DNA of 64,000 nucleotides from Chiua virens (Eukaryota > Basidiomycota > Agaricomycetes > Boletales > Boletaceae), in NCBI GenBank assembly GCA_019787685.1, contig JAHNUO010000005.1, forward strand, positions 1,798,001 through 1,862,000, in the 5' to 3' direction. Shown one piece after another: positions 5,383 to 59,676 of the stretch; position 1 is the stretch's first letter, and every line of letters starts with the position of its first letter. The notes beneath the pieces were generated by a model, which had not been told where the DNA came from, did not search any database, and saw nothing but the letters and a program-made list of their open reading frames with translations. Position numbers and translations under genes: made by a program.

Positions 5383-7186
5383 CTAGTACTGGTCAACGTG
5401 ATTCAACGTCCCTTGGAACCATCTGAATGCTATCCTGTTCCCTCGTTCTGCCCTGCATCCACCTCTATGTTCACCGCCGCCTCGTTCTCCTCGCGACTTG
5501 CGAATACAATGCCCGATCTGGCTAGCGCCACGCTCGGATAGCGTCGATAAGCCAAACCCAGAGTCAATCCCGCCCCCACGCCGGCCTTGAATGTCATGCG
5601 CGTGCAATTCCCGTATGCTTATGACGAATCGAGGGGTGAGAGTGAAAATGGGCACATACTGCGCCAAATACACTAGAAAATGCAGCCCATTGTCGGATGA
5701 AAGCCCTCCCCAGTTGTTGTACAATATGTTAACTATGTTCTGCAGGAGGTAGCTATGATAAGAAATTACCATTAGCCATATCTAATGCGTTTTGTAGCAT
5801 TGGCAGTAAAGAGGACCGAAGATAGACACATACGCAAGGAAGTAGAGGATACCCTGCTTGACGAGTATATTGATGTATCGGTTAAGTTGCCACTGCTTTG
5901 ACACGCGGTACATTTGAAGTGACTGCCTCACAAACTGGATGATTGGAAGCATGGACAAGATTAAACTAAAGAGGATTTGCACAGCGTAAGCCACTTGTGC
6001 CAAGATGATTGCTCCAAGGGGCGCGGTCGCCGCGAGCGTGCAAAATGAATTATTCCTATATTTTGCTGGTGACCCCTGACCATTGTTAGTGTGGCATACA
6101 TTCGATGAAAGATGTCTACACATACATAAAGAATTCTTCGGATCGCTGGTGAAGAAATAATGTGCTGCGGTGGAGAGGACTTCAACGAAAAAGAAGACAA
6201 TGAGTATACATAAGATTGGCCTTGATCGATTGTATATTGCCCATACGCGCAAGATCATTATGACTGTAATTCCAATTGTAGTTTCTAATTTTTCATCCAA
6301 GCTACATAGCTACTCACAATCGGCGGCGCCAAAGAAAAAGAAATATGACCATTGCATGGTAAGAAACACAATTTCACCTTGAAGTGTTTGTGAATGGAAT
6401 GGAGAAGGTGTTTTGAGTGAACACTCACACCTGTCAAGCGGATATCAGTTGACAATAAGCGTGAGTGAAATCAAGGCAGTACTGGTACGCACATCTGAGT
6501 ATGCAGTAATATTCATGTCAGCACCGTCATCGATGATTGGTGTACGAAGCATACCTCTTCAGTACCAGGTACAAATGTGGTTCCATCTTTCAGTGTGGTC
6601 AAAATTGGATCAAGTCTGTATTTAATGACTCTAACTCACAGAGGGCAGCGCACCTGATAAACGGTCGGAGTTAGCATTTAGTAAATGCATTGCAACAACC
6701 ATAAGCTTACGCAACATTCAATAGGCCGCAATAACGAATCTGTGAAAGCACCGCTAGAGCCTATACTCAGGCTAGTGAACTAGAAGTTTCGGTACACACG
6801 AGAATGAACAGCGTCGACACCCAGGTCCACGGTTTGCTCTGTTATCTCATCAGGGATACGTCAACTCCATGAATGGGCATGCACTGACCCAGATGTATTT
6901 AATCTTCATAGATTAACGATCAGGGAACCATTCACGCATGATATTGGAAAGCACATGAACTATACCTCTTTCGGAAAGACGAGGACTTAGGATGCGTGAG
7001 TCTGTGCCTCACAATGGAACAGTATCGATAGCTTACCGGAATCATATACGACGGCAGTGATGATGGCGACTGCAAGAAAGTTGAAACCTTATGAAATTGA
7101 TCATCACGAGTGCGGGAAAGCATACGAGACACATAGTTATTCCACTCCATGGCAATGAGAGATGGCTCCTGGTCTGCCGAGGGCAT
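5383..7186 (-). CDS. DUF6533-type 7-TM membrane protein (copy 1)
   Basis: A predicted integral membrane protein of the large Agaricomycete DUF6533 family; function unknown, topology GPCR-like. Starting from the ATG at 7186, I can follow AIITAVVYD, then VLVFPKEV, then KIKYIWSKPWTWVSTLFIL and IRYCGLLNV, the usual N-terminal module split by tiny introns. Downstream are further TM stretches, ITVIMILRVWAIYNRSRP (about 6245) and ILCILIVFFFVEVLSTAAHY. The C-terminal part has TPRFVISIRELHAHDIQGRR and GIDSGFGLS, followed by a Gly/Arg-rich tail to the stop at 5383. No disabling change was noticed. It has two same-strand relatives in this window, at 20.1-21.4 kb (decayed) and 55.3-57.1 kb. Confidence 0.75.
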
Positions 7187-14270: not shown

Positions 14271-17200
14271 GAATACCACGTACGTATATCCATTGCCTTG
14301 ATACTTTTGGCCAGGTCCGCTGACTGTGGGGCTAGGGCAAAGATATTTACTATCGGAGGTGAGGTTGTAACACTAAGTCTGTTCGATGCTGACTTATCTT
14401 CTTTCAGGGATCAAACTTCGTACTGGAACAAAACCTAGACTCTGGCGGAAAAGGATATACTACATCAAGTTTTACTCGGCCGGAACAGCGCGATCGACGA
14501 AGGAAACGAAGGATGGAAAGGATGGTCTTTCATGGGATGAAAACTTTCTTTTGTGAGTATGCATCAATACTGCATACTAGAGAACTGAATGATGTCAGCG
14601 ATGGGAACGACAAGGACGACTTTCGCGTGGAGGTTTACCAGAGGCATCGCTTTCCACGCAAACGGGACGAGCTCGTTGTAAGTCTCACTTCTACGTTCGA
14701 AGACGTAGTGACGAAAGTGAACAACAACGGTACGGAAAACACATGCAGCATGTTCTACTGACAGCTCGTTTTCAGTGTTTGAAGAATCTCTCCGAAAGGA
14801 CCCTTCCATGTCTGATGATTCTTCGGAGGCCAAATTTACACTCAAATTTACATTCATCACAGCCCCCCATCAAGGGCACGACACCCAGAAGCGTCAGGCT
14901 GACTGTGACATCGGAAAGGCGATCCAAGCAGCTGGCGCAATGCATCCCACGCTTACTGTGGTTGATCCCGCGACTTCGGCCGTCGATGAAGTCCCACAAC
15001 TCATGGGTAGCGTACAAACATTTGAGACGACGTGGAACGTTTTGTTGCAGAGAATCGAGCTCCTCAGCAAGATTTCCGCCAGTATTGCGCAGGTATGGAT
15101 GTGTTGCTCAGTGTCGCCGTGCGCATGCGGTCTGATCGCTACGTAGATTCACCCTTATGTATCGCTGGCTTGGTTCGTTGTGTCGTCTGTCAATCAGGTT
15201 TGATCTCCGATGAAATCCCTGTGCCATTACTGAGTACTACGATGCTCAACACAGATTCTCGTAAAGCAGAAAAATTGCGATGATCAAGTAATTCGATTGG
15301 CAGGTACCATGAGCGACGTCTTTGCGTTCGTCCACGATACCAATCCATTGAAGACGATCGAAGAACATGTAGAGCCCCTTAAGCTCCTCATCCAACAGGT
15401 GATGGAGTGCGCGGATTTCATCCGGGACTACGCCGAGCACAAAGGCTTCGGTAAGGAGGCCCGCTGCCTTATTGTGTCTCTTACTCACCCCTGATGCAGT
15501 GACACGGATGGTGACATCCACGTTCGCAAATGTCGACACAAGAATCTCGGATTACCAGAGCAAGCTGCATGAGCTTAGAGACGCATTCGTGCGCGGGATT
15601 ACATTGCAAACCAGAATCATTGTCGGTCGTTTGCACGACATGGTTGACGACGGCGGTAGGCCTGGCCTTTTCTGATCCTAATCAGACACTCACGAATGCC
15701 AAACGCAGCGGACAAAATCGAGATAAGCGCCTTGAAAGACCTGCCATATGCCGACGGTGCAAGGCACGACCAGACGAAGGGTTGCCTGCCAGGCACTCGA
15801 GAAACATTGCTGCGCGAAATTTTTGAGATCCTCAATAATCCCGCAGATGATGCACCTCGAGTCTGTCTTCTGATTGGCGTCGCTGGGTCGGGCAAGTCTG
15901 CGGTGGCTCATTCAATCGCGCGATGGTATGACAAACAGGAAAAGCTAGGCTCATCGTACTGTTTCGCAAGGGCTGATGTAGTGAGCCGGAACCCAAATAA
16001 TCTGTTCAGCACCATTGCACGCGATCTTGCCGACCGTGATCATCAGTACAGGTCTGCCTTGTGCAAGGTGATCCAAGCAAGCCGATCGCTTCGCACGTCG
16101 CGGGTGCCTATGGAGCAGCTTGAGCAGTTGATCATCGAGCCTAGCAAGGACGTCCGCCCTATCGGACCTTTGGTCATCGTGATCGATGCGCTCGACGAGT
16201 GTGGCGATCAAGCTAATCGTCAGCACCTTCTACCTGCCCTTTCTAGACTGATCACGGATACGTCTTTCCCGACCAACCTTCGTTTCTTGATAACCACTCG
16301 ACCGGAAAACGACATTCTAGACGACATTCTCGACCAACTGCCGTCAGACCCACGCCTGGTTTGTAAGGAGATGGGAGATATCTTGAAGCAAAGTGTTGAC
16401 GCAGACATCGAGAGGTTCATCCATCATTCCCTCGATAAATATTCGTCCGAGCTCCAGTTAGTTGACCAGGACTGGTGTCGACTACTCGTGCAGCGCGCGC
16501 AACACCTCTTCCAGTGGGCAGCCACGGCATGCAACTTCATCAGAGAGATAGGTTCAAGCGGACTCGGGCGATCTGATCGGGTTCGACTACTCCTGGAAAC
16601 CGATAAGATTGAAGGTGGTTATCCGCTGGACCAGCTTTACCGGACCGTGCTACGACAGCTATTCGAGTCCGAACCAGAACGGGATCGGTTTCGTGAGGTG
16701 ATGGCCATCGTGCTCGCCCTCAAGAAACCACTCCCCCTTCCTTCCCTTTCGGCTCTCATTGATGGACACTTGAGGGTACCAGTAGATGTTCGAGCCTGTT
16801 GTTTCAGCTCTTGCATCTCTGTTGGATGGGGCTTCTGATGACCGGAAGCCCATCCGTCCACTTCATACATCCTTCTATGATTTCTTACGTGATGGCAAGA
16901 GCAGTTTCACTTTTCAAATCCCACTCCTTCCCCAGAATTCCCTCACCCTTGGACAAGCATCACTTGCATGCATGCGCCACATGCTTAAGTTCAACATTTG
17001 TGGCCTCACTGATCCCCGAATTCTCAACACTGTTGTCCCTGACCTATCCAGTCGGGTGGGCAGAGCTATCCCTCCTCATCTATCATACTCCTGCCTATAT
17101 TGGATGGACCACTTGCAACATGTTCAATGTACCCCAGACCAACTTGATGACATCACTCTGTTCTTCAAAACCTTCTTCCCCTACTGGGTTGAAGCCATCA

Positions 17201-19524
17201 GTCTTCTATCCCTCTCCTCAGCATCACCCATTCTGTCTGCCCTAGAGACCTGCACAATCCTTGAAGGTTGGGCCCAGCCCAAGGTAGGACAAACAATTTC
17301 ATGACTGGTAATTAATTCTGAGAAAATTAATCAGGAGCAGAGTATCACTATCCTTGCCTCAGAAGCATCCAGATTCATCCAGGTGTTTGCCCCTGTATTC
17401 AGAAAATCTACCCCCCACCTATACCTGTCAGCTATGCCCCAGACCCCCACCAACTCACCACTCTGTCAGCTTTGGCAGAAGTTCCTTCTAAAATGTACTT
17501 CAATCACCTCTGGACATCCTACTAGTTGGCCAGCAGACATTCATACTCTTCAGGGGCATAAACATTCTGTTGTATCTGTTGCCTATTCATATGATGGGAA
17601 AAAGATTGTCTCTGGCTCTTATGATAGGACCATCAGGGTTTGGGATGCAGCCACTGGCCAGCACATAGCAGGTCCATTCCAAGGGCATGGAAATTGGGTT
17701 TCATCTGTTGCCTTTTCACCTGATGGGAGGACAATTGTCTCTGGCTCTTTAGATAGGACCATCAGGATTTGGGATGCAGCCACTAGCCAGCTTATATCAA
17801 GTCCACTCCAGGGGCATGATCATTCTGTCACATCTGTTGCATATTCACCTGATGGGAAGAAGATTGTCTCTGGATCTGAGGACAGGACCATTAAGGTCTG
17901 GGATGCAGCCACTAGCCAGCTCATAGCAGGTCCATTCCAGGGGCATGAACATTCTATCACATGTGTTGCCTATTCATCTGATGGGAAGAAGATTGTCTCT
18001 AGCTCTCATGATAAGACCATCAGGATCTGGGATGAAGCCACTAGCCAGCTTATAGCAGGTCCACTCCAGGGGCATGACTGTTCTGTCACATCTGTTGCAT
18101 ATTCACCTGATGGGAAAAAGATTGTCTCTGGCTCTCATGATAGGACCATTAGGATTTGGGATGCAGCCACTGGCCAGTCTGTTACAGGTCCATTTCAGGG
18201 ACATGAAAGTTCTGTCACATCTATTGCCTATTCACCTGATGGGAAGAAAATTGTCTCTGGTTCTCATGACAGCACCATTAGGATCTGGGATGCAGCCACT
18301 GGCCAACCTATAGCAAGTCCATTCCATAAAGATTTTGTTACATCTATTGCATATTCACCTGATGGAAAGAAGATTGTCTCTGGCTCTCATGACAACACCA
18401 TTAAGATCTGGGATGCAACCACTGGCCAGCCTACAGCAGCTCCATTTCAGGGGCATACATACTGTATCATATCTGTTGCCTTTTCACCTGATGGGAGGAA
18501 TATTGTCTCTGGCTCTTATGATAGGACTATCAGGATTTGGAATGCAGCTACTGGTCAGCCTATGGCAGGTCCATTCCAGGGACATGAAGATTCTGTCACA
18601 TCTGTTGCCTACTCTCCTGATGGGAAGAAAATTATCTCTGGCTCTTTAGACAGAACAATCAGAGTCTGGGATGCAGCAACTGGCCAGTCTATATTAGGTC
18701 CACTCCAAATGCATTCAGAATTTGTCACATTTGTTGCTTATTCACCTGATGGGAGGAAAATTGTCTCTGGCTCTGATGACAGGACCATTAGGATTTGGGA
18801 TGCAGCCACTGGTCAGCCTATTGCAGGTCCATTTCAGGGGCATGAAGATTCTGTCAGATCTGTTGCCTATTCACCTGATGGGATGAAGATTGTCTCTAGC
18901 TCTCATGACAAGACCATCAGGATCTGGGATGCAGCTACTGGCCAATCTATAGTAGATCCATTCCAAGGGCATGAGGATTCTGTCACATCTATTGCTTATT
19001 CACCTGATGGAAAGAAGATTGTCTCTGGCTCCCATGATAGGACCATCAGAATCTGGGATTCAGCCACTGGAAAGTCTATAGCAGATCCATTCCAGGGGCA
19101 TGAAGATTCTGTCACATCTGTTGCCTATTCACCTGATGGAAGGAGGATTGTCTCTGGCTCATATGATAGCACCATCAGGGTTTGGGATGCAGTCACTTGC
19201 CAACCTATAGCAGGTCCATTCCAGGGACATAGCTCAGTGGTCACCTGTGTTGCATTTTCACCTGATAGCAACTATATTGTTTCTGCATCTAAAGATGAGT
19301 CCATCAAAGTATGGAAGGTACAACAACTTGTCTCCCTTGGCAGCCTCCATGAAGATGATGGATTTATTTTCTCTGGTGATCTATGTCATCACTGGATTGC
19401 TCCTTGGTTTAGGCCTGCTTTTTACCTTCCCCCTCTTTCCTTAGTCATATCTCGTCATGGAACATATCAGGTTGACATAGATGGTTCATTTGGAGAATCC
19501 TGGATTGCTTGTTGGAAGTCATAG
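14271..19524 (+). CDS. NLR-like C2-NACHT-WD40 STAND protein, apparently frameshifted
   Basis: A fungal NLR-like signal-transduction NTPase of the HET-D/HET-E-related type; in other fungi such proteins act in self/non-self recognition and cell death. In order: a C2-like N-terminus (from IKLRTGTKPR near 14412 to VYQRHRFPRKRDELV); an alpha-helical linker (IEEHVEPLKLLIQQVMECAD, ADFIRDYAEHKGF); a NACHT domain opening with PYADGARHDQTKGCLPGTRE, Walker A GVAGSGKSAVAHS (about 15877-15915) and Walker B LVIVIDALDEC (about 16171-16203); then IRPLHTSFYDFLRDG and 14 WD40 repeats. The intron 17284..17334 joins NACHT and WD40 parts in frame. Near 16787 the frame changes by one base with no usable intron, so the gene may be a pseudogene, or this may be a base-calling error. 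The start is uncertain. The 3' half is almost free of CpG. Confidence 0.8.
17542..19325 (+). repeat. 14 tandem WD40 repeats (about 129 bp each)
   Basis: Fourteen head-to-tail units of 43 codons (one of 41, the seventh, lacking two residues of the QGHE segment). Each follows the pattern PFQGHEDSVTSVAYSPDGKK then IVSGSHDRTIRIWDAATGQ. Variation concentrates at a few positions (residues after GH, the SGS/SSS-x-D position and the ATGQ-S/P-I-x-G/S/D end), as in NLRs with recombining repeats. Fourteen units would make two seven-blade propellers. The last unit (FSPDSNYIVSASKDESIKVW) is the most divergent. Confidence 0.93.
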
Positions 19525-20082
19525 TTTTATTTTGTTCTGGTAGATCTTCTGAGTTGTGCATGATTCCTTTGTCTTTTCTACTATGTGTACATATGTATGT
19601 ATAGCTAGTACTACTGTACCATTTTAATTAATTTGTCAGGCCCTGTGACATGTGAAACAGGAAGTCTTTTTTGCTTAGTCTCTTACTTACATATGTAGAT
19701 CCAATTCAAAGTCCAATAAGTCCACCTAGTTATACCTGTCAGTTCAAATTCAACCTATCCATGCTCCACTCTTGTGATTTCATTGATGCATGCAGGTGGG
19801 CCATAGACCTAACAATGCTGGCCAGGCCCAGGCCTTGTCATATTTCTAGTTGCATTTTTCTAAGCACTAATTCACAACACACTAATGTGCTTATGTAGTT
19901 ATGCATCTTATACCATGTTCTACAGATTTTACTCCAATGTCTCTCTGGCTTACTAGTATCTATAGAACTTCAAGTTTAATTGCCATCTACATCATAATCC
20001 ACTTGCTTCATACATATGCACCTGAGGTCATGCATGTGCACTTGCATAGCAATTTATTACAAGTATATTTACTTGCTTGAGT
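19525..20082. other. CpG-free intergenic DNA
   Basis: AT-richer non-coding DNA between the NLR-like gene and the DUF6533 pseudogene. No gene was seen. Confidence 0.5.
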
Positions 20083-21407
20083 CTACCTGCACCAGTCAAG
20101 CTGATTCAATCTGGCTTCCTCATTCTGCCCTGCATTCAATTCTATGTATTTTTTCTGCCACATCATCCTCCATGTGACTTGCAGACACAATAGGCAAATC
20201 AGCAACACCATGGTCAAATAGTGTTGATAAGCCAAACCCAGAGTCAATCCTATCCCCACTCCTGCCTTGAATTCATACTCATACAGCTTCCATATGCTCA
20301 CTGGCATGAATAATTGAGGGATGAGAGTGAACACTAGCAGGACATACACCATGAAAGTTGATAGTAACTACAGCTTATGGTTGGCTGGAATCAGTCCCCA
20401 GCTGTACAACATGCTGACAAGAAAGGGGACTGAGGACAGAAAGCCATAGAAAGAGATAGATTGATGTACATGTATTGGTTGAGTTACCACTGCTTTGTCA
20501 CATGGCACATTTGAAGTGACTGCCTCATAAACTGGATGGTTGCAAGCATGCACAACATTACACTAAAGATGATTTATTTGTACATTGCCCATGTGTGTAG
20601 GATCATTATCACTGTAATCCTCAATTAAATTTCATTTTCTCATCATTCCAACTTGAAGCATTCATGAATGGAATGGTGGAATCAAGGTTGAGTACATGCA
20701 TCTGAGTACACAGTGAGTCATGTTAGTACATCCATCAGGATCAAAATTTGATGAAGCACACCTATTTACAACCAGGTACAAATGTGATAACATCTCTCAG
20801 TGTGGTGAAATTTGAATCAAGTCTATATTTTTCAGTCCAATTTAGTACAGAGGGCAGTACACCTGATGAGCACTCAAGTTAGTGTCTAGCATGTACATTG
20901 CAACAACCATGGGCTCACTGATGCTAAACTCAATAGACCACAATAACAAATCTATGAAAGAATTCAAGTTGCTAGAGCACATGCTTGTGAACTGGGAGTT
21001 TGAGTACACACAAGAACACATAGCATTGACACCCAGGTCCATGGTTTCTTCTGCTGCCTCAGATCAGAAACATGTCAACTCCACAAATGGGGTGCACACT
21101 GACCCAGATATATTCTATCTTCATAGATCAATGATTAGGTCCTCAGTCTTCTCATGCATGATGCTGGAAGCAACATGCACTGTACCTCTTTTGGAAAGAT
21201 AAGGGCAGATGCATAAATTTGTGCCTCATAATAAAATCAAATTGATAGCAGACTGTAATTGTATATGATGGCAGTGAGGATGGTGACTGTGAAAAAACCT
21301 GAGAGACCAGTAATCTCCATAAGCATAGAAGAGCATACAGGACATCATGATATAGTTGTCCTACCACATGGAAATGAGAGATGACTCAACTGCAGAACAG
21401 AGGACAT
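20083..21407 (-). pseudogene. Decayed DUF6533-type 7-TM gene (copy 2)
   Basis: Base-level similarity to copy 1 (5383-7186) runs in the same order and orientation: for example 'gataagccaaacccagagtcaatcc' is shared at 20227 and 5549 (given here only as positions with a common core 'gccaaacccagagtcaatcc'). Where copy 1 has CG, this copy has TG or CA (gcgtcgataagc versus gtgttgataagc; cccgtatgct versus tccatatgct). A segment equivalent to about 270 bp of copy 1 (5960-6225) is missing: 'actaaagatgattt' runs straight into 'gtacattgcccatgtgtg' near 20570. Only fragments of frame remain, so it cannot encode the full protein. Confidence 0.85.
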
Positions 21408-21620
21408 GATTCTTGACTGGATATTAATTGAGAGGCAGTGGGTGGTCTGAGAAGCATGAGAGATAACAAACAGCTATGATGGTATGTTCAAGCCCTACTC
21501 AGACCAACAGATTTATAAGTCCACACATACTTGCCAGTGTGTTCACCACTATGTTTGCCAGTGACTGCAGTGAACATGCCATACAACATCCTGTATAATT
21601 CACATACATATTTTGCAAAC

Positions 21621-22703
21621 CGACCAACTTTGGTGGTCATATCATGATGCAACTTGAACCCCAGCTCCTGTAGCTCGGAGAGACGTGAGTGTTAGGACTC
21701 CGAGTCTGCTCGGTAACTTACGATACAACGGGAATGGCAATCTGAGTCTTTGGATAATCCGCCGCCTGTCCAGAAATCCGCACTACAGGATGCATGCTCT
21801 CGACGGCCCGGCTACACAGGAACACTATGCATTCTTGAAGCCACTCGCACAATTGGCATCTTTGTTTGCTTCTCTTTTGCCCAAGTTAAGGCTGCCCCCG
21901 GCCATCCCTAATTCTGTTCCCTGCCGTACCCTCAGGCTGCTATGACTTTCGCATGTAAGTCGAGGAGCCAATTGAAGATCAAAGTTTCATTCACCTCTTC
22001 CGCAGTCGCGACCTGTTGCTATTCTGATTGGTCACACAGCAGCCACTGTACCGTATTCAGCCAATGAGTGCATGACTTATCTTCCATCGGTTCGAATTCG
22101 GATCGGTAGAAAGTCAGTCGTGCCGCGGACGTAACACCTGAGATCTGAGAGTTCAAGAAATTGACCGTAATGGTACATATGCTTCATTCTTCTTTTGGTT
22201 CCGTTGGTACATGCAGGTGGTCTAGGCCGGATCCGACGTCGCCAGTTGCTGTAGAGTGCTGGCGCTTAACCGGTGGTCGAGACTCTCGTCGATTTACAGT
22301 TTAATTGCATCATTTCCAGGCACTACTCTGGAGCACACAGCTTCAAGCCTGCCAGTCCACTGTTCTAGACCCCGTCGCTCACACAGATGCCGTCGATGTG
22401 GTGACGCAGCAGCTCCACCTCGACTATCTAACCCCAACAAAGTGGAGTCGTCGGTTCTAGACCCTCGAGATATCTGCGCACCGCCGGAGAGTTCTGATTT
22501 CCAGATTTCCTTGCCCTCCTGTTCAAGCATGCTTCGAACTTCTGCGGTATGACGTGTATGCCTGTCTGGGGCTAGTTTTGCTCTCAGTCCAATATCCAGT
22601 TCCGCTCAAGTATTCTCTCAACTAAATGATCATTCAACCCCGCTACCCCCTATATATTCCTCTGTATCGAGGAATTTCTGACCATGAGCCTTGTCACTTC
22701 CCA
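21621..22703. other. Intergenic region, right of the CpG-free block
   Basis: CpG-rich again from 21621. Short frames exist (for example around 21685-21945 and 22256-22552), but none resembles a known family or forms a clear exon chain. Confidence 0.4.
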
Positions 22704-55320: not shown

Positions 55321-57129
55321 CTAAGCGGACTCAACCTCCCTTGGGACCAACTCGATGTCTCCTGTGTCTTCGCGCACATCCTCCCCCGCGTTCCTCGCGA
55401 CCTCGCTCTCCACACCAGCCGCAAACACCATCGGTTCTGGGGCAGCACCGTGGCTGGATAACATAGACAAGCCAAACCCGGAGTCAACCCCACCTCCACG
55501 TCTACCTTGAACATCGTGTGCATACAACTCCCGTATGCTGATGATAAATCGAGGCGTTAGAGTGTACACAGGCACGAGGGCAACTATGTTTGCTAGCATG
55601 TACTTCCAACCACTGTCTGGAATGTTTCCCGTGTAGAGCAATATGCTGATGAGGTTGAGCGAGATGATTCTGTGACATAAATGTTTCAGTTGGATCATAA
55701 CTCAACCAATGGTATAAATTGTCAGAAATAGTTTTTAGGTTGGCAACTGAGGAATAAGGCTGGGGCCGGGGACTGGAATACTTACCCTGTGAAATAAAGA
55801 ATGCCCTGCTTCACGAGCAGGTTTATGTACCGGCTGAGTTGCCAATGTTTTGTGACACGGTACATTTGAAGTGACTGCCGTACGAATTGCGCAACGGCTA
55901 GCATGCACAACACCGCACCAAACGTCATTTGGGAAGTGTCAGCCACAGAACTCCAAACGGGCTTTACGACTTGCACCGTGCAAAATGAATATTCCAGTAC
56001 TTGAATGGTTACAACTGACGGCTGGTTAGTGTAGCTTGAATTAATCGAGTCAGAAGCTACGTACATGATTTCGAGTCATTCTTCGAGTTACTATCGACAA
56101 CAGTAGCTATCATGACGCCGATGATCTCGACAAAAAGCATGGTAAGAAGTACGCCAAGGATTAGTCTTGATCGATTGTACATTGCCCATACGCGCAGGAT
56201 CATGACTACTGTAATCGCTATCATAGAATTCATTTCTGAATTAGAGTAACTCGACTACTCACAATCGGCTGCGCCGAGAAAGAGGATGTATGTCCAGTGC
56301 TGAGTATACCACAGTATTTCGCCTTCAATGATTTATGAATAGAAAGCGGGTGAAATACTACTACAAGTGAATACTCACAACTATCTCACTGGTATCAGAC
56401 ACATCCTAAATGTGTGGTGATGGTAGTGAGCCCAATACGTACGTCTAGTAATACAGTGATCATCATGGGGCACATCTATTATTCACCGATAGCTTGGGCA
56501 CATACCTTAAGATCAGGCACAAAAGTACTCCCCACTTTTGCCGCAGTCAATGCTTGATCAAATTTGTATTTTATGATATCAAACTTACCGAGGGAAAGGA
56601 TCCTGGTACATGCGTGAGGTCAGAATGCAGTATATGCATTACGCAGGCATCGTACACTCACGCCAAATCATATAGGCCACAATAACGAACCTATCAAGGT
56701 CTTCTTAGAAGACAACCTAGTGCCAGGTACACTGGAAACTAGGTACGCACAACAAGATACATTGTCGTAACCCAAGACCATGGTTGATGCTGCATTCTTG
56801 TCAGGAATGTATCAGCTCAGGAATTGGCTGTGTACAGACCCAGATGTACTCTATCTTCGTCAATGATCGATTAGCGAAAGGTTTTGTCCGTGACAGAGTC
56901 CAGCTGCACCTCTTCTGGAAAGACAAGGACTGGCAATCATGATGGTCAGTTTGCTGCTCACAGCGGAATACAACCGGCGGCTTACTGTAATCATATCCAA
57001 CAGGAATCAGGAGAATAACTGTGAGTTACTTGTGAGATTGATTACCAAAGTACTACAGATGCACATACGAGAAAGATAGTTGTTTTGCTGAATGACTGAG
57101 ATGCCAGCGGTCAACTGTAGATCAGACAT
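55321..57129 (-). CDS. DUF6533-type 7-TM membrane protein (copy 3)
   Basis: A paralogue of the gene at 5383-7186, same strand and exon order. The start is ATG 57129 (MSDLQLTAGISVIQQNNYLS). TM segments include QLVLVRVLRVWAMYNRSRLI-like sequence near 56170, MTFGAVLCMLAVAQFVRQSL then QMYRVTKHWQLSRYINLLVK (55780-55920), and NIVALVPVYTLTPRFIISIR near 55570-55620. The C-terminus is ELYAHDVQGRRGGGVDSGFG, followed by an acidic tail to the stop at 55321 that differs from copy 1. No break was noticed, but not every exon was verified. Function unknown. Confidence 0.7.
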
Positions 57130-59676
57130 AGTTTTGTTGGATGCAAACAGAAAGCTGTCAGAAGTGCGATGGATAGGAAATGGTATGGGAATTACTCTGC
57201 ACAGAGTGATCAGTTCATAAGAGTTCTGGATTTATTGTTTGGGACAACATTCAAGTTGCGATATGGCAATCATGCGGCTGGAGCACGTTGCATGTGGCCA
57301 GCTTGAGTGACCCTGGCTAGTACTAGGGATGAGCGAGGGTGAGACTTTTTTTTGACCCTTGTCGTGAGAGATGCCATACTGATACACCATATATGCCACA
57401 GCAAAGCTACATTTGCTGCACCGAAGTCATGAACGTGAGTGTGGCGAGCATGCCTGCAGGTAAGATCGATTGCACCACGATGGGTAATTTCTGCAAGGTC
57501 TTGGAATAGAAGGCTCATTGTTCCAAATCTGTCTGATCGTGTCATGAACATCACAGCCCATGGATCTCACACGATGTTGGACAATGGGAAAGACCAGCTT
57601 GATGCGAGGAGCAATGAGCAGAGCAACTATATACATGACCGAGCGAGCACTGGGAGATGTGGTAAAACACACGTACATATGAACAGACAGATGCATAGTA
57701 GACCAGAAGGTTCGTCCTCTCCCGACAGATTGGGTTAAAATGCATCTATCTTTTATATGTTGGCAATGGCCATAGTGATCTTGGCATCTAGAAGCATTCT
57801 GCAAAGCAGTAGTAGGCATGTGACGCCGGTCTGGCATGTCCTTCCAAGACAACATCCTCAAACATGCTGTGCAACCTTGGACTGATTCTTGAGGACACCG
57901 CCCGCGAATTGGGTTGGTCAGTGGAGAGTCTGAGACAGCCTGATCGATAAATGTGAGGACCTCATGTTCCTTTACCTCACCTTAGTTCCTTTCGATCTTC
58001 ACCTCATGATTTAACGACCCTGAGGGCAGACCTGAGTGATAAATAGATTATGTAACATGTTATTACTACAGCACATTGTATGATTGACGACGAGCATTGA
58101 AGACAGTAGACACAATGGCGTTTGCATTATTTAGGACAGACATAAATGTTAGTCCCGACGTGAATGACAAATATGAAGTTTAGTTTACCATGGGCATGAA
58201 TGAAATATCAAGTTGATTCCGAGTTCTGTATGTGTGCCGAATCATCAAGCATATCCGCATGTGTATGTATTCCGAACATAAGCTTGTGCTGGATGCAGAC
58301 ATTTGCGACAACTTGAAGTTCAGGCAAACATTTAGTATACTCATCCCAAATGGGGCGGGATGTGTGTTCAAGTTGACGAGGAACTTTGGAAAGATGGATT
58401 TGTTGCAAAGAAGCAAATGGACCGACATTCTCGCTCACCCTGATGTCTGGCAAGCAAGGGAACTACCTCAAAATCAACAATACAATTACTTGGTCATGAT
58501 CATTTCTGCGTGAGAATCCATTGAACTGGACACAGGTATCGGTCCATCGGCCCTTGAGTTCAATCGTTCTGCAAAAGTCGGCCGTCGCCAGGATGAACGG
58601 GCTCGAAGCCAGGAACGAAGGCGCTCCCTTACTAAGTACGCTAGTCTTGATTCCAACTCAGCTACTCGCACATATGGCATTTGGGACATGACCGCGTGGT
58701 CCACGCCTCCCATTTGCAAGTCCACCCACTCCGTCCCAGGCCAAGGCTTTAACCCGCTAGCAGTTCCCAAGGATTGCCTCACGATCCACCTGCCATACTT
58801 GGCGTGGCAAGTGGGTTGTGAAGCAACATGTGAGAACTCGAGACTTATGATCCGTAACTATGACTGTAACGTAGACACAAGTCATTCAACGTCACCGCGT
58901 GGGGCAAATTGATCCAATCGCAGTCGGATGCCTCAGGCTGAACTGATTGCGCGATCAAGCTACGTCGGCTTGGAAGGGAGACCAGAGCTCGCTTGACACA
59001 AGGGTGAATATAGCTTTTGCGCGGTGAGCTTGTAGGCCACAAGGTTTCAGCAGAACCCTCGAATCCAGGATGTGGCGAAACAAGGTTCGAGTCGTCGGCG
59101 ATGTGGGGTACAGGAACCCTCCGCATGCGGGGGTGGAGTGTGTGTAAATTACGTATTGAACAGCCGCGGGCGTTCGCGTTCGACGAGGGAATCAGCGGGG
59201 GTACAAAGCTGTGCTGCCAGTATGTTCTCTCCAATGTATTTCCGTTGGTCCATTTTAAGTGTGAATTTCACGGAGTGGAAGGCTGCACAAGGACACCGAT
59301 AGACAATAAACTGATCTGCACAGCCGTCCGAGTCCGTCTTGCAAGTACATGCGATCTGACAAGAATGGTAATCTAGCCAAATGCTCGTCTTTCGGATCGT
59401 AAGAAGTCGTCGCATGCTACTATGAAAACAGGCCCATCTCCTAGAATCCGAAAGGAAAATGAGTTCTTGGCAGAGAAAGTGGTATTCAAAGAAGGGAAAA
59501 AATCAACGGTTCGAATACTAAACAATCCGACGTGGAAGCTTGCAGGCCAGAAGATCAGCTGCAACCCCACAGCTTCTACAACAACAATCTTTGTAATGTA
59601 AGATGAAGCAATAAAGGAGCAGAACAAGAGTGTCTGATATAGAATCAAGCACAGGTATCAGCCTCTTTGCGGGGCA
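57130..59676. other. 2.5 kb gene-poor region
   Basis: Many short overlapping frames on both strands, none convincing. No transposon terminal repeats, CpG depletion or tRNA signature was seen. It could hold decayed DNA or a long intergenic RNA, but nothing in the sequence demonstrates either. Confidence 0.4.

Follow-up and report, generated by a model that had tools for sequence, protein, structure and literature searches.

The NWD/HNWD genes of Podospora anserina (het-d, het-e and het-r) combine a NACHT domain with tandem WD40 units of high identity (PMC1805685, PMC2873952, PMC4986451). In its available text, one of these reports describes two pairs of selected codons, each surrounding a conserved site, and proposes repeat-induced point mutation (RIP) of the WD arrays as a source of mutation in these genes (PMC1805685). 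Among basidiomycetes, CpG-type methylation-deamination or RIP-like change is known from transposable elements (PMC4352252), and CpG mutations in Rhizoctonia solani AG8 are stated to rise near repeats (PMC4014442). Here we analyze a 64-kb stretch of the bolete Chiua virens (GenBank assembly GCA_019787685.1, contig JAHNUO010000005.1, positions 1,798,001 to 1,862,000; referred to below as the window and numbered from its first letter), which lies within a 48.3 Mb genome of 136 contigs. The window carries an NLR-type gene with an NWD-like architecture, a NACHT/NPHP3_N NTPase followed by WD40 repeats, and its family resembles the Podospora NWD genes. The 3' half of this gene and the DNA adjoining it have lost nearly every CpG dinucleotide.

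This CpG desert extends from position 17054 to position 21620. An exact count agrees with the preliminary description, which had reported a single CpG (at 19453) between those at 17053 and 21621; the nearest others are at 16888, 16975 and 17017 on the left and at 21676 and 21684 on the right. The block at 17055-21620 thus contains one CpG in 4566 bp, an observed/expected ratio (o/e) of 0.005 compared to 0.94 for the window, and the o/e of TG plus CA is raised to 1.54 from a window value of 1.16. The GpC o/e in the block is 0.96 and the TpA o/e is 0.70 in both block and window. Based on flank densities, approximately 287 CpGs would be expected and approximately 286 are missing, and the excess of about 213 TG and CA dinucleotides corresponds to about three quarters of them. 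The CpG-free runs inside the block measure 2400 and 2168 bp, while the longest elsewhere in the window is 139 bp, and no 500-bp bin outside the block and its edges falls below an o/e of 0.52. As had been noted earlier, the left edge is graded and the right edge abrupt. The former (16750-17053, read on the forward strand) is an erosion front, where paralogs differ in having CG, TG or CA at the CpG columns; at the latter (21621-21730), normal CpG density is regained within approximately 60-100 bp. The CpG loss described for this block is confirmed; the preliminary description missed that the desert is a composite of a family-wide part, from 17054 to approximately 19.6 kb, and a part of approximately 19.6-21.62 kb that is specific to this copy.

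The family-wide part belongs to the gene itself. A long NACHT-bearing exon on the forward strand (15660-17283, with an NPHP3_N/AAA_16/NACHT match in 15660-16835) is CpG-normal up to about 16.75 kb. It is followed on the same strand by a putative 51-bp GT...AG intron (17284-17334) and by a WD40 exon (17335-19524) that is open to its stop codon at 19522-19524 and holds the one CpG. Within this exon, Tandem Repeats Finder (TRF) identified an array of 13.1 units of 129 bp with 81% match (17551-19230, forward strand) that has no CpG. When the block DNA was used as a query (40 of 106 candidates scored), at least 28 other NLR-related places of at least 500 bp were located, some of them overlapping; 19 of the 28 were fetched with flanks, together with 1000 bp of a twentieth. 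In all 19 NACHT-WD40 paralogs, CpG is gone over the WD40 exon and the NACHT half is CpG-normal, with an o/e of 0.91-1.22 over a 1.2 kb stretch. The 20 complete arrays, including that of the window copy, hold 0-3 CpGs each (o/e at most 0.03), and the non-repeated linker and tail contain 0-3 per copy.

The limits of depletion are similar from copy to copy. Edges were defined by three CpGs in 100 bp and measured from the WD40-exon frame, the starts or ends of this exon in two copies with broken or shorter frames (L021 and L026) being set by hand near the values of their siblings. In 19 of 19 paralogs, this places the 5' edge 216-386 bp ahead of the frame. Depletion ends 103-341 bp past the stop in 17 of them; the remaining pair, in which it ends at 812 bp, has flanks that are 99.7% identical and represents two alleles or the products of a recent duplication. 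Counted in bins across the 19 paralogs, there are 3.8-7.0 CpGs per 100 bp between -1000 and -500 relative to the frame, then 3.0 and 1.7 in the two bins that follow and 0.2 from -200. No listed bin within the frame exceeds 0.7; beyond the stop, the density is 0.16 over the initial 100 bp and reaches 5-9 at +300 to +600. Five more diverged copies (L024-L028; identity to the window copy 0.55-0.76 per 150-bp bin) repeat the pattern, and the piece of the twentieth, more distant WD40 paralog has no CpG in 1000 bp. Because several copies are near-identical, the 19 paralogs do not represent 19 independent events. The preliminary description had named equally CpG-poor relatives as evidence against its reading. 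Such relatives were found, but over the WD40 half only, and, as their NACHT halves are CpG-normal, the loss is no peculiarity of this locus but a feature of one domain across the family.

Neither chance nor codon choice explains the loss. A WD40 protein written with the codon usage of the NACHT half would contain 160 CpGs (standard deviation 8.7, minimum 127 in 2000 trials), and shuffling of the gene's own synonymous codons gives 46.5 (standard deviation 4.7, minimum 30 in 1000); one is observed. For the noncoding DNA at 19525-21620, shuffling gives 82 +/- 7 (minimum 56 in 1000) and none is observed. Chance is excluded by these counts, and the preliminary description was right to set codon bias aside. 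It had also proposed deamination of methylated CpG, and the changes carry the signature expected of that process: CG is converted to TG or CA on both strands, with other contexts far less affected. The CpA o/e is raised to 1.64 and 1.66 in two parts of the block, and in the noncoding part CpA (1.66) and TpG (1.63) are about equally raised, so both strands were hit. The conversion of CpA to TpA typical of ascomycetes was not seen in the block, where the TpA o/e is 0.63 and 0.77 in two parts compared to 0.70 in the flanks.

Protein-coding capacity has largely survived this process. It had been suggested that C-to-T change was tolerated in the WD40 region; consistent with this, 17 of the 19 paralogs have an open WD40-exon frame of 732-738 codons (L021 is broken and L026 shorter, at 636) while all 19 arrays are nearly CpG-free. 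The open frame of the window copy was likewise correctly recognized; from stop to stop it spans 739 codons (17305-19524, with its start inside the putative intron). The frame survives because Arg (as AGR), Ser, Pro, Thr and Ala can all be coded without CpG, and an array that can be so coded is, once its targets are exhausted, largely immune to further CpG mutation. Compared to the seven siblings aligned, the window copy differs in length by one base near 16.8 kb, which breaks its NACHT-exon frame, so this copy is probably degenerate though its WD40 frame is open.

There are signs that CpG loss is still operating. Substitution columns were compared among 12 close copies and also among 15, with p-values that ignore the kinship of the copies and exchange between units. 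In the array, T>C or A>G changes that create a CpG were found in 4 of 388 columns versus 38 of 495 others with 12 copies (odds ratio 0.13, p 1.4e-6) and in 7 of 390 versus 127 of 491 with 15; a looser test, in which the new dinucleotide need not be CG, gave 27/391 versus 48/495 (p 0.15). CpG-creating transitions show no significant deficit in the NACHT half (13/138 versus 21/326, 12 copies). At the 5' edge (16750-17060), C>T or G>A changes affect 10 of 26 CpG columns versus 12 of 148 elsewhere (12 copies, p 2e-4), or 15 of 30 versus 35 of 141 (15 copies, p 0.008). These patterns suggest that new CpGs rarely persist in the array and that the 5' edge continues to erode.

The gene provides a built-in control, as its two halves show similar divergence between copies but one is CpG-normal and the other nearly CpG-free. 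In 14 copies identity is approximately 0.9 in both halves, yet the CpG o/e is approximately 1 in the NACHT half and approximately 0.01-0.1 in the WD40 half. The 24 best pairs share 97-100% identity over 1.2 kb of the NACHT half and 96-99.7% in the 3' flanks, and both parts are CpG-normal. For example, L015 and L022, which are 17 kb apart on one contig, are 100% identical in the NACHT stretch and have 85 CpGs there. Similarly, the retrotransposon loci L036 and L037 are 99.5% identical over 3483 bp and have a CpG o/e of 1.14. Since near-identical dispersed DNA keeps its CpGs, the loss is not triggered by dispersed duplication over the time scale observed. A second type of NACHT-WD40 gene (L001 and L032, contig C11), whose WD40 units have diverged in nucleotide sequence (self-identity reaches 0.36 at best at 129 bp and does not exceed 0.43 at any of six offsets tried), is CpG-normal. 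In the window and 76 loci of the same genome, every array found by TRF with a length of 100 bp or more and a period of at least 6 was a WD40 array or part of one, with 0-3 CpGs, bar one in L026. Among the WD40-family arrays compared, the best discriminator of depleted DNA is a long, high-copy tandem array of approximately 13 units of 129 bp.

The copy-specific part of the desert, a 3' extension at 19525-21620, has no CpG and exceeds the approximately 100-350 bp usual in the siblings; no repeats of at least 40 bp were found inside it. It includes a decayed, interrupted multi-exon gene on the reverse strand (20118-21440), convergent with the NLR gene. The preliminary description had called this a pseudogene, and homologous copies at 5441-7072 of the window and on other contigs support that interpretation. 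The four relatives examined are not CpG-free (o/e 0.4-1.4 in 200-bp bins, with L034 the poorest at 0.4-0.6 in several bins). When a sister copy was aligned with the extension, none of its 49 aligned CpGs was kept: 38 correspond to TG or CA, 3 to TA and 8 to other dinucleotides, while the changes outside CpG were C>T at 21 of 173 sites and G>A at 27 of 159. The CpGs of L033, L034 and L035 kept in the extension are 0 of 42, 0 of 46 and 0 of 32, respectively; sister-sister controls keep 44 of 96, 34 of 71 and 35 of 78. We infer that the CpG state of the sisters is the older one.

This decayed gene belongs to a multi-copy, multi-exon family with members at 5441-7072, 20118-21440 and 55466-56216 of the window and on contigs C10, C2, C12 and C9; eight of the places fall in a stretch of about 235 kb on contig C5. 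The five family pieces tested had no Pfam match. A DUF6533 assignment was dropped, as none of the 28 matches to PF20151 in the genome coincides with the places of this family, and nothing supports a pheromone receptor. A viral-contig scan and a plasmid tblastn search produced no match. Adjoining the relative at 55466-56216, on its right, is a partially CpG-depleted region (56501-58500, o/e 0.54-0.73, TG plus CA 1.35-1.53) that may represent a weaker or more recent domain similar to the desert.

The arrays themselves are evolving by exchange between units. TRF match is 71-95% for the approximately 13 units of the 20 complete arrays. In 10 close copies compared at fixed offsets, units are 0.945 identical when they occupy the same position, 0.907 when they do not and 0.909 within a gene, and the same-position unit is the best match, or jointly so, in 331 of 1170 comparisons. 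As this exceeds one in 13, units are often exchanged without losing their position entirely, a pattern of concerted evolution with reshuffling of units. A regular-expression anchor for the units lost some of them in several copies, and the position comparison made with it used L012 and the window copy (13 units each): L012 units are 0.92 alike within the gene and 0.80 and 0.79 alike to the same and other positions of the window copy. Across 16 copies, the most diverse phases of the unit are 14 and 16, on either side of an almost invariant D15, together with 38 and 39; diversity at phase 41 is raised as well.

Among 11 close copies, the ratio of nonsynonymous to synonymous divergence (dN/dS) is 1.07 for the WD40 exon (dN 0.057, dS 0.054; 54 of 55 pairs) and 0.22 for the NACHT exon (dN 0.030, dS 0.133; 53 of 55 pairs), calculated from pairs with dS > 0.02 and subject to the bias that repeat exchange introduces into such estimates. 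For the window copy, L011 and L024, the WD40-exon values against these 11 copies are 0.46, 0.40 and 0.45, so any excess of replacements must be recent or confined to few sites. Fourfold-site divergence outside CpG contexts is 0.034 in the WD40 exon versus 0.085 in the NACHT exon. Because divergence is lower even outside CpG contexts, homogenization by repeat exchange, besides the loss of mutable CpG, probably lowers dS in the WD40 exon. Across L012-L020, L022 and L023, fourfold divergence in the NACHT exon is 2.5-2.7 times that in the WD40 exon.

The close NACHT-WD40 copies are clustered on contigs C9, C43, C32, C46 and C127, with differing copy numbers. Some of these contigs resemble haplotype copies (the flanks of L024/L025 and of L016/L018, on C9 and C43, are 99.3-99.7% identical), and NLR number may differ between the two nuclei of a dikaryon. 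Proteins from named organisms among 120 listed of 698 NACHT relatives are from Imleria (two), Lanmaoa and Boletus.

The loss is local, directed at CpG, of transition type and centred on the array, with leakage of a few hundred bp. We consider it probable that CpG methylation and subsequent deamination, with the tandem array of the NLR gene as their focus and with outward leakage, caused this loss. The 3' half of the gene and the adjoining DNA would have lain for a long time in a CpG-methylated chromatin domain, with methylation recruited or held by the short-period array, and deamination of 5-methylcytosine would have converted nearly every CpG to TpG or CpA. In the window copy, this domain may have spread 2.1 kb past the stop codon over the neighbouring convergent gene, ending before a RhoGEF-CNH gene (pieces between 23573 and 26117, reverse strand; the right edge falls in the gap before it). 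The decay of the convergent gene could be either a cause or an effect of such a spread. A target-exhausted array could go on shuffling its repeats and diversifying its binding face.

Several observations weigh against this interpretation. Methylation at the locus is deduced from the base sequence. C>T and G>A changes are slightly commoner at CpG in the NACHT half too (21/150 versus 36/410, p 0.08), and the column-based p-values treat columns as independent, which is not strictly so. The transition/transversion ratio (NACHT 1.60, edge 2.93, linker 1.63, array 1.05, tail 2.09) is no clean readout: the edge is high and the array low as expected, but the CpG-poor linker and tail are not uniformly low. 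The exceptional array in L026 (118 bp, 24-bp period, 4.9 copies, 68% match) is CpG-normal, with 10 CpGs and an o/e of 1.3, as is polyubiquitin, with about four units of up to approximately 0.7 identity; low-copy tandem repetition alone is therefore insufficient. Furthermore, the long, high-identity arrays compared all belong to the WD40 family, such that the array and other features of the WD40 exon are not separated as potential recruiters. It is only as a tentative proposal, with the balance somewhat against it, that we suggest that short-period, high-copy tandem repetition in a coding exon itself recruits stable CpG methylation in C. virens and that NLR sensor arrays responded by purging their CpGs. 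If so, these arrays would be immune to further methylation-driven mutation, and long, similar arrays could be kept, shuffling and diversifying, despite a genome that might otherwise silence or mutate them.

The alternative that fares best is an active, RIP-like deamination of CpG aimed at short tandem repeats, in place of slow spontaneous deamination of 5-methylcytosine. Its product, CG to TG or CA, would be the same, and CpG-biased RIP-like change with more CpG mutation nearer repeats is described for basidiomycetes in the available text of one report (PMC4014442). We consider it unlikely, as retrotransposon loci show graded and not catastrophic CpG loss. Among the 30 best-scoring RVT_1 retrotransposon loci, the CpG o/e ranges from 0.09 to 1.14, with 4 below 0.5, 8 at 0.5-0.8 and 18 above 0.8; CpG loss also touches some retrotransposon loci, mostly less completely than the WD40 arrays. 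Consistent with the preferred methylation-deamination reading, the genome contains three PF00145 cytosine methyltransferase loci (L029, L030 and L031), whose CpG specificity is presumed. A BAH match lies above the cut-off beside L030 and a weak one below the cut-off beside L031, while L029 has the methylase match alone. L030 and L031 may be DNMT1/Masc2-like and L029 DNMT5-like. No RID-type gene was identified, which speaks against active deamination, but no search aimed at RID was made. As far as the available text of these studies goes, DNMT1 and DNMT5 together accompany CG methylation in basidiomycetes (PMC7862722), and gene-body methylation is linked to low expression in a rust and in Pleurotus (PMC12129025, PMC5974365).

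Two retrotransposon loci, L059 (C11:154891-155376) and L060 (C16:721973-722458), have a CpG o/e of 0.13 and 0.09. Their reverse-transcriptase frames are open over 1239 and 1189 codons, a second case of long frames in CpG-poor DNA.

Slightly less likely again is a single ancient erasure, after which CpG-free units spread by duplication and concerted evolution without ongoing methylation. The exchange of units described above and the 5' boundary common to all fetched copies are in its favour. Speaking against it are the non-repeated linker and tail and the window-specific extension, which are also CpG-free or nearly so, the continuing depletion of CpG-creating substitutions and the edge that is still losing CpG.

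Homology-triggered RIP or methylation induced premeiotically (MIP), in which dispersed paralogs recognize each other and become mutated or methylated, is improbable. The family is certainly multicopy, with its 28 or more other places, and fungi possess such systems, as partly described in two of the reports cited above (PMC1805685, PMC4352252). However, the near-identical NACHT halves, including those of L015 and L022, keep a normal CpG content, as do the retrotransposons L036 and L037; copies with approximately 0.9 identity in both halves have lost CpG in only one; and the block lacks the CpA-to-TpA signature. This mechanism is largely refuted on the time scale seen. RIP of the ascomycete type acts on duplications longer than about 0.4-1 kb with more than 80% identity, irrespective of their location. 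It was rejected for this locus, where the CpA o/e is raised and not lowered and near-identical duplicates of 1.2 kb and 3.5 kb keep their CpGs.

Selection against CpG in coding sequence, for example as an escape from methylation-based silencing of the array, is very improbable. It would fit a frame that is open in most copies and a WD40-exon dN/dS of about 1 among close copies, but noncoding decayed DNA in the same block is equally CpG-free, the depleted zone begins before the exon and ends past the stop, and neither the C11 NACHT-WD40 gene with diverged units nor 35 bacterial WD40 loci are CpG-free. Such selection is refuted for the extension and could still contribute within the exon. The bacterial loci (CpG o/e median 0.90, minimum 0.49) also led us to reject the idea that WD40 folds are inherently CpG-free. 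Finally, import of the WD40 half from methylated DNA, an alternative offered in the preliminary description and favoured by the sharp composition change inside one gene, is scarcely credible and fails because the 5' boundary is about the same in 19 of 19 paralogs, graded over approximately 300 bp and crossed by continuous homology, and because the siblings' 3' depletion ends elsewhere than that of the window copy.

Methylation-deamination centred on the array, if correct, has several implications. Receptors of immune type in fungi retain highly repetitive sensor domains even though the defences of their genomes attack repeats, and this family shows what appears to be an end state of that conflict. 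It offers a testable case for which kind of repetition, tandem or dispersed, draws CpG methylation in basidiomycetes, and it points to coding sequence that has stayed methylated for long periods, although reviews state that most fungal species lack such methylation. Caution is also warranted in that CpG-based RIP indices would mark open NLR exons as decayed repeats. No report of near-complete, domain-limited CpG loss in fungal NLR genes was found in searches of the open-licence PMC literature.

Among known systems, gene-body methylation of the invertebrate style likewise removes CpG over long periods from transcribed genes whose 5' ends stay CpG-normal; in C. virens, the loss was seen in one tandem-repeat exon family. 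MIP resembles the proposed process in that it methylates repeats without immediate mutation, but it is triggered by duplication between loci, and near-identical duplicates outside the array keep their CpGs. RIP in ascomycetes changes C to T mainly at CpA, while the change in the C. virens block is confined to CpG. The closest match in mutational product is the CpG-type RIP-like change or 5-methylcytosine deamination of basidiomycetes, which converts CG to TG or CA and is there linked to DNMT1 of the Masc2 type (PMC4352252, PMC4014442). In the available text of these reports, such change concerns transposons or is diffuse and genome-wide; the C. virens block differs in that the loss is near-complete, limited to one half of a coding gene and common to all fetched family members, with frames mostly intact. 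The closest match in gene structure is the Podospora NWD family, for which the available descriptions report units that are homogenized and shuffled with position only partly conserved, variable residues that flank a conserved one (as phases 14 and 16 do D15 here, in addition to phases 38, 39 and 41) and an array thought to be exposed to repeat-induced mutation. In Podospora pseudogenes, as far as those accounts extend, the NACHT domain and flanks are affected by RIP and the WD array is largely spared, while in C. virens it is the array that is exhausted and the NACHT half that is spared.

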